NCBI RefSeq assembly: GCF_000336385.2
Contig: NZ_HG424562.1
Span: forward strand, 1-48,986
Origin: Lysobacter antibioticus HS124
GTDB taxonomy: Bacteria > Pseudomonadota > Gammaproteobacteria > Xanthomonadales > Xanthomonadaceae
Direction of reading: 5' to 3'
DNA: 48,986 bases
Both the position numbers and the translations under genes were made by a program. Positions within the stretch are counted from its first letter, which is position 1. Every line of letters starts with the position of its first letter. Of the stretch, positions 1 to 14,284 are shown one piece after another. The notes under the pieces were generated by a model. That model worked only from the letters and a program-made list of their open reading frames with translations. It was not told where the DNA came from and did no database searches.

Positions 1-1427
1 GCCACCTGGCCTATGTGATCTACACCTCCGGTTCGACCGGCCGGCCGAAGGGGGTGATGAACGAGCACCGCGGCATCGTCAATCGACTGCACTGGGGGCA
101 GCAGACTTACGCCTTGACCGAGCAGGACGTAGTGCTGCAGAAGACGCCGTTCGGCTTCGACGTGTCGGTGTGGGAGTTCTTCTGGCCGCTGATGGCCGGT
201 GCGCAGTTGGTGCTGGCGCGCCCGGAAGGGCACAAGGACCCCGCCTATCTGGGCGAGTTGATCCGCAGCGCCGGGGTCACCACCCTGCATTTCGTGCCGT
301 CGATGCTGCAGCTGTTCCTGGCCCGGCCTGATGCGGTCGCCGGTTGCGCCAGCCTGCGCCGGGTGATCTGCAGCGGCGAGGCCTTGCCGGCGGCGCTGGC
401 AAGGCAGTGCCGCGAGCGCCTGCCGCAGGCGCGGCTGTACAACTTGTACGGCCCGACCGAAGCGGCGGTGGACGTCACCGCGTGGACTTGCAGTGCGGCC
501 GACGAGACGGTCGTGCCGATCGGCCGGCCGATCGCGAACACGCGGCTCTACCTGCTCGACGCCGCGTTGCGTCCGGTACCGGTGGGGGTGGCCGGGGAGC
601 TGTACATCGGCGGCGTGCAGGTGGCGCGCGGCTACCTCAACCGGCCGGACCTGACCGCCGAACGCTTCATCGCCGACCCGTTCGACCCCAGCGGTGCCGG
701 GCGCCTGTACAAGACCGGCGATCTCGGCCGTTGGCGCGCGGACGGCGCGATCGAGTACCTGGGCCGCAACGACTTCCAGGTCAAGCTGCGCGGCCAGCGT
801 ATCGAGTTGGGCGAGATCGAAGCGCAATTGTGCGCTCTCGACGACATCGCCGATGCGGCGGTGCTGGCACGCGAAGACCTTCACGGCGCGTTGGCCCTGG
901 TCGCCTACGTGGTGCCGGCCGCCGGCACCGATGCGCCGGTCCCGGCCGCGCTGCGTGAGCGGCTGGGCCGGCGCCTGCCGGACTACATGCTGCCGACCGC
1001 CTATGTCGCGCTGGCGGCGTTGCCCCTGAGCGGCAACGGCAAGCTCGACCGCAAGGCGCTGCCGGCGCCCGATCAGGCCGCGTTCGGGCACTGCGAATAC
1101 GCACCGCCGCAGGGCGAGGTCGAGCAAGCCCTGGCTGCGATCTGGTCGCAACTGCTCGGCGTCGAGCGGGTCGGCCGTCACGACAGCTTCTTCGCGCTGG
1201 GCGGCCATTCGCTGCTGGCGGTGCAGTTGCTCGAACACCTGCGCCGCCGCGACTGGACGATCGACGTGCGCGCGGTGTTCGCTCAACCCGAACTGGCGGC
1301 GATGGCCGCGGCCGTGCGTGGCATCGTCGCGCCGGGACAGGGCGAGGTCGCCGTGCCGCGCAACGCCATTCCGGAGCGATTCGACGAGTCGCCCAATGAA
1401 CACGAAATCGAGGAGTTCAGACTGTGA
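1..1427 (+). CDS. Non-ribosomal peptide synthetase, 3' part (A-PCP), predicted serine module
   Basis: This frame is open from the left edge, so the 5' end is missing. It enters inside an adenylation domain just before core motif A3 (YTSGSTGRPKG, about nt 21-53). Reading the specificity pocket by alignment to GrsA gives D-V-W (FDVSVWE), H (TLHFVPS), I and S (VICSGEA), L (YNLYGPTE), V-D and the invariant K, i.e. DVWHISLVDK, a classical Ser code. NGKLDRKALP ends the A domain. A carrier domain follows (DSFFALGGHSLL, phosphopantetheine Ser codon 1209-1211). There is no epimerisation domain. The C-terminus is an acidic tail ending EIEEFRL, which I infer is the donor half of a docking pair with the TubC-like domain of the next protein. 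The stop overlaps the next GTG start (GTGA), so the two synthetases are translationally coupled. Confidence 0.95.
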   Translation, partial: HLAYVIYTSGSTGRPKGVMNEHRGIVNRLHWGQQTYALTEQDVVLQKTPFGFDVSVWEFFWPLMAGAQLVLARPEGHKDPAYLGELIRSAGVTTLHFVPSMLQLFLARPDAVAGCASLRRVICSGEALPAALARQCRERLPQARLYNLYGPTEAAVDVTAWTCSAADETVVPIGRPIANTRLYLLDAALRPVPVGVAGELYIGGVQVARGYLNRPDLTAERFIADPFDPSGAGRLYKTGDLGRWRADGAIEYLGRNDFQVKLRGQRIELGEIEAQLCALDDIADAAVLAREDLHGALALVAYVVPAAGTDAPVPAALRERLGRRLPDYMLPTAYVALAALPLSGNGKLDRKALPAPDQAAFGHCEYAPPQGEVEQALAAIWSQLLGVERVGRHDSFFALGGHSLLAVQLLEHLRRRDWTIDVRAVFAQPELAAMAAAVRGIVAPGQGEVAVPRNAIPERFDESPNEHEIEEFRL

Positions 1428-12880: not shown

Positions 12881-14284
12881 ATGTCGTACCTGGAGCTGGC
12901 GATCCTGGCGATCGCCTTGGGCGCGGCCTTGCTTGCGGCGGTGTCGCCGCGGCTCGGGCCGCGCAGTCTCGCCACCGTAGCCGGATTGTCGGCGTTGGGC
13001 CTGGCGGCGCAGGCGTGGCGATGGGGCCCGTGCTGGCAGTACCTGCCGCTTTGCATGCTGGTATTGGCCTTGGCCGCGCTGGCCTGGCTGCGGCGACGAC
13101 CGCCGCGGCATCGCGTCCTGGTCTGGGCCGGGCGCGGCGGTCTGGTCGCCCTCGCCGCGGCTGCGGTCATGCCGTGGGGGCTGCTGCCGGTGCCGGAACT
13201 GCCGCCGCCGCGCGGGCCGTACGCGGTCGGCAGCCAGGTGTTCCGCTGGGCCGATCCGCGCCGCGGCGAGGCCGCGACCGACGACCCGAACGATCGGCGC
13301 AATCTGATCGTCCAGGCCTGGTACCCGGCCGCCGCCGGCGGCGCGCCGCCGCCGCCGTACCTGGACGGCCTCGGCCGCCTGCCTTCCCGGGTCTCCTTCA
13401 TTCCGTCGCTGGCGATGCAGCGCTTCGGCCGCATCGACACCCATGCCCGCCGCCAGGCGCCGCCGCTGGTGTCGGCGCGGCCCTGGCCGGTGGTGCTGTT
13501 CTCCCCGGGCTACGGCGCATCCCGCGGGTTCTACAGCGGCCTGCTCGCCGACTTGGCCAGCCGCGGCTTCGTCGTGCTGGCGGTGGATCACCCCTACGAA
13601 GCCTCGGTGACTGAGCTCGCCGACGGCCGACTGGCGACGCAGGTCGAGCGCTTCCTGCCGGACGATCCCGGCCAGCTCCGCTACATGTCGCTGCAGTTGG
13701 AAGTGCGCGCCGACGATTTGCGCGGCGTGCTCGACCGGGTCGAGAGCGGCGCCGGCTTGGGCGCCTTGTCGGCATGCCTGGATCGCGACCGCATCGCCGC
13801 GATCGGCCACTCCTTCGGCGGCGCCGCCGCGGTGGCCGCGGCGATGAGCGACCCGCGCTTGCGCGCCGCGGCCAATCTCGACGGCACGCTGTACGGCCGC
13901 ACGCTCCGCGACCGTCTCGAGGTGCCGTTCCTGCTGCTGGAAAGCGACCGTCGCGAGACCGGCCATTCCGAGCGTTACTTGCGCGGCGCGCTGGCGCTGG
14001 CCCAGCGCCTGCGTGCCGGCGGCTATCGCTACCAGATCGCCGCGGCCAACCATTACAGCTTCACCGACGTGCCGCAGTTCCTGGCGCCGCCGGCGCGATG
14101 GCTCGCGGCCGAATTCATCGGCGGCTCGCGCGGCGCTGCCGCGACCCAGGCGCTCAGCAACGACCTGCTGGTCGCGTTCCTGCACGGCGCGTGGCGCGAC
14201 GCGCCCGGCGATGTCGCGGCGGCGGCGCGCCGCGCCGGACTGAGCGGGGGCGCGTTGCCGCCGATGGCCGGCACGGCGGAATGA
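12881..14284 (+). CDS. Membrane-anchored alpha/beta hydrolase, PAF-acetylhydrolase/dienelactone-like
   Basis: A 467-aa protein with about four hydrophobic helices in residues 1-110, then an alpha/beta-hydrolase domain. The pattern NLIVQAWYPA, PVVLFSPGYG and the nucleophile elbow GHSFGG (Ser311) resembles the plasma PAF-acetylhydrolase/lipase family, which cleaves short acyl or ester bonds. A His in AANHYSF is a candidate catalytic base. It starts 25 bp after the oxygenase and is the last gene before a strong hairpin, so it is probably transcribed with the NRPS genes. Possible roles are self-protection by opening the lactone, trimming of a precursor, or an unrelated lipid esterase. The sequence does not decide between these. 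Confidence 0.85.
   Translation: MSYLELAILAIALGAALLAAVSPRLGPRSLATVAGLSALGLAAQAWRWGPCWQYLPLCMLVLALAALAWLRRRPPRHRVLVWAGRGGLVALAAAAVMPWGLLPVPELPPPRGPYAVGSQVFRWADPRRGEAATDDPNDRRNLIVQAWYPAAAGGAPPPPYLDGLGRLPSRVSFIPSLAMQRFGRIDTHARRQAPPLVSARPWPVVLFSPGYGASRGFYSGLLADLASRGFVVLAVDHPYEASVTELADGRLATQVERFLPDDPGQLRYMSLQLEVRADDLRGVLDRVESGAGLGALSACLDRDRIAAIGHSFGGAAAVAAAMSDPRLRAAANLDGTLYGRTLRDRLEVPFLLLESDRRETGHSERYLRGALALAQRLRAGGYRYQIAAANHYSFTDVPQFLAPPARWLAAEFIGGSRGAAATQALSNDLLVAFLHGAWRDAPGDVAAAARRAGLSGGALPPMAGTAE

Follow-up and report, generated by a model that had tools for sequence, protein, structure and literature searches.

The window analysed here, 48,986 nucleotides of Lysobacter DNA (NZ_HG424562.1, positions 1–48986), is an entire contig (C123) of a 5.14 Mb genome assembled in 183 contigs. 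Its start falls within a nonribosomal peptide synthetase (NRPS) gene, and positions 1–14284 hold the 3′ section of a lipodepsipeptide NRPS cluster with eight modules, which we assign with high confidence to plusbacin biosynthesis in a Lysobacter firmicutimachus-type strain. We checked this tail by translation and by Pfam and whole-genome domain searches; the window has a GC content of 70%, and frames such as 9741–10856 and 10853–11491 were set aside as spurious by codon-position GC, a filter that also hides some real genes. Specificity codes of adenylation (A) domains were taken from an alignment, in which residue 331 (Pro code) and residue 239 (acidic code) were gapped and read by eye. Condensation, dual condensation/epimerization, carrier and thioesterase domains are abbreviated C, C/E, T and TE, and A domains are numbered by module. 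The tail comprises the following genes and domains.

3–1427, forward strand: 3′ end of a one-module NRPS gene (EmpD/TrpB-like), with the rest of the Ser A domain of module 6, a carrier domain and a C-terminal tail; the 5′ end is lost at the contig start
3–638, forward strand: partial A domain of module 6, Ser code DVWHISLVDK
1424–9703, forward strand: two-module NRPS gene (EmpC/TrpC-like) with TubC docking, dual C/E, A-Pro, T, LCL C, A-Asp, T, TE and TE, covering modules 7 and 8 and release
1745–3049, forward strand: C domain of module 7, dual C/E (Pfam Condensation; HHLLQQQGD at 1790; HHLVMDH)
3113–4177, forward strand: A domain of module 7, Pro code DVQFIAHVVK
4925–6244, forward strand: C domain of module 8, ordinary LCL type (HHIVSDG)
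6311–7360, forward strand: A domain of module 8, code DMKELGMVDK
8306–9700, forward strand: tandem TE domains (Pfam Thioesterase in two stretches, intact GxSxG in both)
9700–10674, forward strand: TauD/SyrP-like Fe/2-oxoglutarate (Fe/2OG) oxygenase 1 (Pfam TauD, E 3.4e-39; HNE...AHG motifs)
10720–11640, forward strand: TauD/SyrP-like Fe/2OG oxygenase 2 (Pfam TauD, E 5.4e-33; HxE...H motifs)
11683–12855, forward strand: third, unannotated oxygenase-like protein without a family match (HxD...H...R pattern only)
12881–14284, forward strand: PAF-acetylhydrolase-like serine hydrolase (PAF-AH_p_II, E 8.8e-22), the downstream cluster edge

The product of 3–1427 matched AMP-binding, AMP-binding_C and PP-binding in Pfam and was 99.4% identical in amino acids to module 6 of G007, a conspecific assembly of 5.3 Mb in three contigs in which the cluster is uninterrupted. 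The product of 1424–9703 was 89.6% identical to its counterpart in G016, a putative tripropeptin producer, 79.0% to that of the Variovorax locus L038, and 70.8% to that of G794, which we take to be Collimonas fungivorans Ter331. A sequence-only reading of this DNA had called the three A domains Ser, Pro and acidic and had proposed a dual C/E domain that would epimerise the Ser; the three codes confirmed the first call, and the HHLLQQQGD signature within 1745–3049 the second. Because this C/E domain directly follows the Ser module, it would act on Ser6 and give D-Ser6. We read the A domain of module 8 as Asp-specific because the tripropeptin producer has this code, DMKELGMVDK, at its modules 5 and 8. 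The paired TE motifs are GWSAG at 8306 with GGDHWN at 8774, and GHSFG at 9149 with GSDHLS at 9617.

The upstream modules are carried by two other contigs of the window's genome.

Contig C182: MFS transporter gene, then an NRPS gene with the first C domain, A-Thr (DFWNIGMVHK), T and a dual C domain, to the contig end
Contig C41: end of an A domain, T, dual C–A(Pro)–T, C–A(DVENVGAIN)–T, C–A(DMKELGMVD)–T, gene end, then a dual C domain to the contig end

In DNA comparisons of loci (BLAST pieces >500 bases, at most 12 per pair), these contigs were ordered on G007 as C182 (98.1% identity, 10.6 kb), C41 (99.2%, 11.3 kb) and the window (99.0%, 30.1 kb compared), with nominal gaps of about 1.35 kb between C182 and C41 and about 1.03 kb between C41 and the window. 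The G007 cluster has eight A domains in frames of 5401, 1430 and 2767 amino acids (5 + 1 + 2 modules in three genes), with the codes Thr1-DVWHISLVE2-Pro3-DVENVGAIN4-DMKELGMVD5-Ser6-Pro7-DMKELGMVD8. Module 1 starts with a C domain ahead of any carrier, and dual C/E motifs occur at modules 2, 3, 6 and 7 only, in all three clusters scanned (G007, G016 and the Variovorax genome G388). The G016 cluster, syntenic with that of the window's strain and 87.6% identical over 15.3 kb, served to calibrate the codes: its order of Thr-Pro-Pro-DVENVGAIN-DMKELGMVD-Ser-Pro-DMKELGMVD matches tripropeptin C, (allo-Thr)-Pro-Pro-Arg-OHAsp-Ser-OHPro-OHAsp (PMC9581180), and therefore DVENVGAIN specifies Arg and DMKELGMVD Asp. 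Modules 3–8 of G007 have the same codes as G016 apart from Ile/Val at position 299 of module 6. Gene and domain content, codes and C-domain motifs are direct observations, and the module order is observed by way of the conspecific assembly. The plusbacin/tripropeptin-type tail proposed by the sequence-only reading is supported upstream as well, where module number and specificity fit that family (eight modules, Thr-[Ser-like]-Pro-Arg-Asp-Ser-Pro-Asp), and the 5 + 1 + 2 gene layout is that of the published empE/empD/empC (PMC8069584) and Collimonas trpA/trpB/trpC (PMC4690342) clusters.

The module codes of the conspecific assembly sharpen this proposal to plusbacin, because Thr1 together with a Ser-like module 2 fits plusbacin only and neither tripropeptin (Pro2) nor empedopeptin (Pro1-Ser2). 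The Thr code of module 1 was found on both C182 and G007, in place of the Pro1 of empedopeptin; the Ser-like code DVWHISLVEK of module 2 was found on G007 only, in place of the Pro code DVQFIAHVVK of tripropeptin. NORINE-derived sequences are asp-pro-ser-asp-arg-pro-ala-allothr for plusbacin and thr-pro-pro-arg-asp-ser-pro-asp for tripropeptin (PMC4154637). A 2024 preprint on L. firmicutimachus, a species to which the assignment of G007 fits, describes a 5.3 Mb genome in three contigs with a candidate plusbacin cluster, a Ser prediction where plusbacin has Ala, and ions of 572.7903 and 564.7928 for plusbacins A2 and B2, with tandem mass spectrometry (MS/MS) consistent with plusbacins (PMC11451712). 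For Thr-Ala-Pro-Arg-Asp-Ser-Pro-Asp with a C15 3-hydroxy acid we computed [M+2H]2+ values of 572.7902 (four hydroxyls) and 564.7928 (three); the same mass sum gave 1126.5626 for empedopeptin, compared to 1126.5630 in print (PMC8069584). As a candidate plusbacin cluster of L. firmicutimachus has been published (PMC11451712), the cluster is already known, and of the "known or new member" suggested from the letters only the first half stands. The genome of L. firmicutimachus SR10 has been described as carrying an empedopeptin-like cluster, at low similarity confidence (PMC12896164).

The product, the lactone and the hydroxylation sites are inferred from the literature, in which plusbacin contains 3-hydroxyPro, beta-hydroxyAsp and a fatty-acid lactone (PMC11451712; PMC13194151). 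Under the plusbacin assignment, the eight-module NRPS (five-, one- and two-module genes) would build D-alloThr1-D-Ala2-Pro3-Arg4-D-Asp5-D-Ser6-Pro7-Asp8, with a putative lipo-initiation C domain that would acylate Thr1 with a 3-hydroxy fatty acid and dual C/E domains at modules 2, 3, 6 and 7 that would epimerise residues 1, 2, 5 and 6. The tandem TE would release a lactone joining the C-terminal hydroxyAsp8 to the 3-hydroxyl of the fatty acid, and the TauD oxygenases would hydroxylate Asp5, Pro7, Asp8 and, in plusbacin A, probably Pro3.

Several points weigh against this assignment. Module 2 has a Ser-like code, and a product with Ser2 and three hydroxyls has the same mass as one with Ala2 and four (the composition of plusbacin A2), so that masses alone cannot prove Ala. 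Both points would suit an otherwise plusbacin-like peptide with Ser2, or with a mixture of Ser and Ala at that residue, given that the module-2 core is a recent copy of a Ser A domain and that a single one of the nine code positions read separates its DVWHISLVEK from the Ser code of module 6. We consider such a product unlikely, since the single changed code residue lies in the pocket and the Ala of plusbacin was set by structure work and, for plusbacin A3, by total synthesis. The report of plusbacins from L. firmicutimachus, with consistent MS/MS, also counts against Ser2 (PMC11451712). Further adverse points are that an earlier in silico match tied plusbacin to a Pseudomonas putida cluster, with a poorer fit (PMC4154637), and that the assignments of G007 and G016 to named strains are putative.

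The remaining adverse points concern the window strain's own module 2, which falls in an assembly gap that leaves its A domain unreadable; this assembly lacks the first half of the A2/A6 repeat. The pocket half of A2 was matched above 90% identity by nothing but the window's own first A domain among the 31 matches listed (40 of 566 candidates scored). Contig C182 (L022, 9141–10577) shifts from module-2 to module-6 sequence near 10080–10139, in a shared stretch where C41 ends, which is probably an assembly jump at the shared repeat; as this is the simplest explanation, we rejected the C182 tail as proof of a swap in the window's strain. The Ser A domain at 12–750 of the window is a nucleotide mosaic of the A2 and A6 alleles of G007, in which most A2-type variants lie within the first 340 bases and the A6-type variants lie beyond about base 470 (over the first 740 bases compared, 11 sites were A6-like, 12 A2-like and 1 unique). 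This mosaic may be real gene conversion or the collapse of two near-identical copies in the local assembly. Glu331 was not seen in the window, which has Asp at that position.

With its module-2 A domain unread, the window's strain could be taken for a producer of tripropeptin (Pro2), since the tail seen here does not distinguish the two families and the G016 cluster is syntenic; we regard this as highly improbable. The strain is conspecific with G007 (99.0% over 30 kb), whose A2 is Ser-like, and the contig breaks, at 16231/17581 and 28865/29897 in G007 coordinates, surround the A2/A6 duplication, so that the contig edges are, as indirect evidence, those expected from a strain that carries it. 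Moreover, the start of C41, at the downstream edge of the swap, matches G007 module 2 at 80 of 80 bases, compared to 67 of 80 both for G007 module 6 and for G016 module 2.

The Ser-like A-core of G007 module 2 is a copy of the Ser A-core of module 6: the two are 98% identical, and the flanks follow module 2 of the tripropeptin-type G016. Along module 2 (sliding windows of 150 alignment columns, local coordinates of L039–L041), segments starting up to about 16,010 were 80–94% identical to G016 module 2, those starting at 16,193–17,426 were 94–100% identical to the G007 module 6 and 41–82% to G016 module 2, and those from 17,606 on were again 80–93% identical to G016 module 2. In a matrix of A-core nucleotide identities for four clusters (G007, G016, Variovorax G388 and G794; 28 pairs each), 4 of 112 pairs exceeded 0.9, exactly one per cluster and always including module 2. 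These were A2–A6 in G007 (0.98) and A2–A3 in G016 (1.00), Variovorax G388 (0.94) and G794 (0.95); the other 108 pairs lay at 0.53–0.77, with the same-residue pairs A3–A7 and A5–A8 at 0.72–0.77. In each of the four clusters, the module-2 A domain is thus nearly identical to a second one of the same line, the donor being module 3 (Pro2, tripropeptin) or module 6 (plusbacin).

FastTree placed the core of G007 module 2 with that of G007 module 6 (support 1.0), its C-domain flank with G016 module 2 (0.967), and its A-sub flank with G016 modules 2 and 3 and G007 module 3 (0.936). On both flanks the module-6 A domain of G007 grouped with its orthologue in G016 (0.947 and 0.672), which indicates module 6 as the source of the copy and module 2 as its recipient. 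For the tripropeptin-type lines, the stretch over which A2 and A3 are alike extends beyond the core: it opens about 600 bases ahead of the A3 motif, at roughly the position seen in G007, and spans the A-sub part, to about 1,170–1,200 bases after that motif; in G388 and G794, modules 2 and 3 group on both flanks, so the likeness there may reflect older module-level relatedness. The synonymous divergence (dS) of the swapped stretch between A2 and A6 of G007 was 0.053, versus 0.40 (A3) and 0.52 (A6) for orthologues between the G007 and G016 species, and thus the copying event, or the most recent refreshing of the copy, seems to postdate the species split. Thirteen of the 28 codons that differ between A2 and A6 of G007 are replacements, four of them at the upstream edge, and D331E is the only replacement at a code position; overall, A2 versus A6 gave no sign of positive selection (nonsynonymous divergence, dN, of 0.016 for the dS of 0.053).

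The plusbacin line therefore probably arose from a tripropeptin-type line by this A6-to-A2 core copy. We infer that Asp331Glu, which gives DVWHISLVEK, made A2 select Ala and turned a Pro2 line into an Ala2 line, making it a candidate Ser-to-Ala switch. For the joint account, in which module 2 is a natural overwrite slot and plusbacins emerged from a tripropeptin-type line by the A6 core copy followed by a Ser-to-Ala change through Asp331→Glu, the balance of evidence tips slightly in favour. The mosaic at the start of the window suggests that A2 and A6 may still be undergoing conversion within the species. No description of the A6-to-A2 copy was found in open-licence PubMed Central (PMC) text, covered mostly as listings and in one case as the first 25 of 82 papers, and we treat it as undescribed for this antibiotic family; in open-licence PMC text, no printed use of the A-domain code strings searched for was found either.

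The sequence-only reading had also counted three 2OG oxygenases after the NRPS genes. The two that it called SyrP-like are TauD proteins by Pfam; the third, which it called P4H-like, has no family match, and that label is not established. TauD oxygenase 1 adjoins the NRPS in G007, G016, the Variovorax loci L037 and L038, and G794. TauD oxygenase 2 is 95% identical in amino acids to its counterpart in G016, 88% and 85% to those of two Variovorax loci, and 81% to that of G794. The G794 homologue (L053–L054) is split over two frames after residue 257, which reflects either an error in the sequence or a gene disrupted within this tripropeptin-type cluster.

By its motif, the N-terminal half of the third protein (11683–12855) is a probable Fe/2OG oxygenase: H98, D100, H165 and R180, read by eye, are invariant in three sequences. 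Searches against the Pfam and NCBIfam models (E 0.001) and against PDB sequences (E 1) gave no match, and at E up to 10 Pfam gave only NdhN (0.15); TonB-type matches on the C-terminal half were weak and were not counted as evidence. An AlphaFold model from three sequences had a mean pLDDT of 53, with residues 1–188 below 50, too weak for a fold, and Foldseek found nothing for it at E 0.001 or better. The protein follows the TauD pair in all six assemblies examined, namely the window's own strain, G007 (100% identity), G016 (91.8%), L037 (84.5%), L038 (80.7%) and G794 (74.4%). Wider searches found it in 3 of 20 genus genomes (G000, G007 and G016), 1 of 369 class-sample genomes (the own genome only) and 1 of 399 genomes of a Variovorax-family sample (G388), with no match in 72,556 plasmid records.

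Because the third protein sits in the tailoring block and carries the HxD...H...R pattern, it might add the hydroxyl on Pro3 by which plusbacin A differs from plusbacin B and tripropeptin; plusbacin A2 contains one oxygen more than B2, tripropeptin C carries three hydroxyls of this kind, and the extra hydroxyl of plusbacin A presumably sits on Pro3. This role is doubtful. The protein has neither a family match nor a usable model, and it is also present in the tripropeptin producer, both Variovorax loci and G794, the three with codes read being of the Pro2 tripropeptin type; it therefore does not alone explain the extra hydroxyl, and the idea of a plusbacin-specific Pro3 hydroxylase is weakened.

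For empedopeptin, an empA mutant gave cyclic products with OH-Asp5 and with Pro7 and Asp8 unmodified, and products with OH-Asp8 or without any hydroxylated residue came from the empB mutant only (PMC8069584). Plusbacin A3 without the Asp beta-hydroxyl shows a pronounced loss of potency, according to a review (PMC13194151). At the cluster edge, the PAF-acetylhydrolase-like gene is present in G007, G016, L037 and L038 and was not found in the stretch of G794 searched.

Elsewhere in the window, positions 40800–48984 encode a sigma-54-type AAA activator, a Pvc16_N protein, two sheath proteins and a tail-tube protein, a set that is cut by the contig end and looks like an extracellular contractile injection system. 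At 27950–29939, outside the cluster, an esterase-like gene (BD-FAE) is followed by a frame with a metallo-beta-lactamase-fold match, both ordinary hydrolases. Contig C13 of the same genome holds another NRPS locus (L021, L024), in which the NRPS genes are short and an A domain has the code DAGDMGHVCK.

Plusbacin-type cell-wall antibiotics are reported to be active on methicillin-resistant Staphylococcus aureus and vancomycin-resistant enterococci. A firm gene-to-product link is useful but has already been proposed in print; the new part is a natural experiment, in which a single A-core, copied from one module to another, sets two antibiotic families apart. The mapped break points and the one candidate pocket residue are open to direct test by NRPS engineers, as candidate swap borders and as a candidate Ser-to-Ala pocket change, respectively. 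The A2/A6 duplication also offers a reason for the contig breaks here and for predictors calling Ser at the Ala of plusbacin.

Compared to known systems, the cluster resembles the L. firmicutimachus candidate (PMC11451712) in species (via G007), Ser-for-Ala prediction, dual C/E domains and two TauD genes, and differs in that the assembly of the window's strain splits it over three contigs. In the accessible part of that preprint we found nothing on the copying of the module-6 core into module 2, on the code of A2 or on a third oxygenase-like gene. With tripropeptin, known from Lysobacter sp. BMK333-48F3, whose genome is published (PMC8656377), and from trpA–C of Collimonas fungivorans (PMC4690342), it shares the 5 + 1 + 2 modules, the TauD pair, the third protein, and the codes of modules 1 and 3–8 bar one Ile/Val position; the difference is at module 2, which in tripropeptin is Pro and matches module 3, versus a Ser-like core copied from module 6. 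The empedopeptin genes empA–E of Massilia sp. YMA4 are alike by description in the empE/empD/empC layout, the two dioxygenases, the tandem TE, the dual C/E domains at modules 2, 3, 6 and 7, and residues 3–8, and differ in having Pro1-Ser2 instead of Thr1-Ala2 (PMC8069584).

No empedopeptin producer, sought for comparison of its Ser2 code and the third gene, was recognised in samples of 399 Variovorax-family and 399 order genomes, in which the only genomes to pass the cut-offs were G388 (family sample) and G388 and G794 (order sample). Relatives of TauD oxygenase 2 occur in two named Variovorax records (85–88% identity) and in G794 (81%); the scan of named genomes used this single protein and hence reaches close relatives only, giving 2 loci. 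The Variovorax and G794 relatives agree with earlier proposals of horizontal transfer (PMC4154637), and a trpA mutant of Ter331 loses its activity against S. aureus (PMC4690342).

NRPSs are known to evolve by exchange of an A-core with retention of the native A-sub/T end, a mode in which the C–A linker is usually kept (PMC8097286; PMC9205934). The G007 copy conforms to this mode in its native A-sub/T end, in a downstream break near the A8 hinge and in its intragenomic donor. It differs in that the upstream break lies, by our estimate, about 40–50 residues within the C-domain end (Pfam borders of module 8 carried over to module 2), so that the C–A linker moved too, and in that the same slot, module 2, resembles an A domain of its own line in four clusters, with two donors and a shared upstream border.

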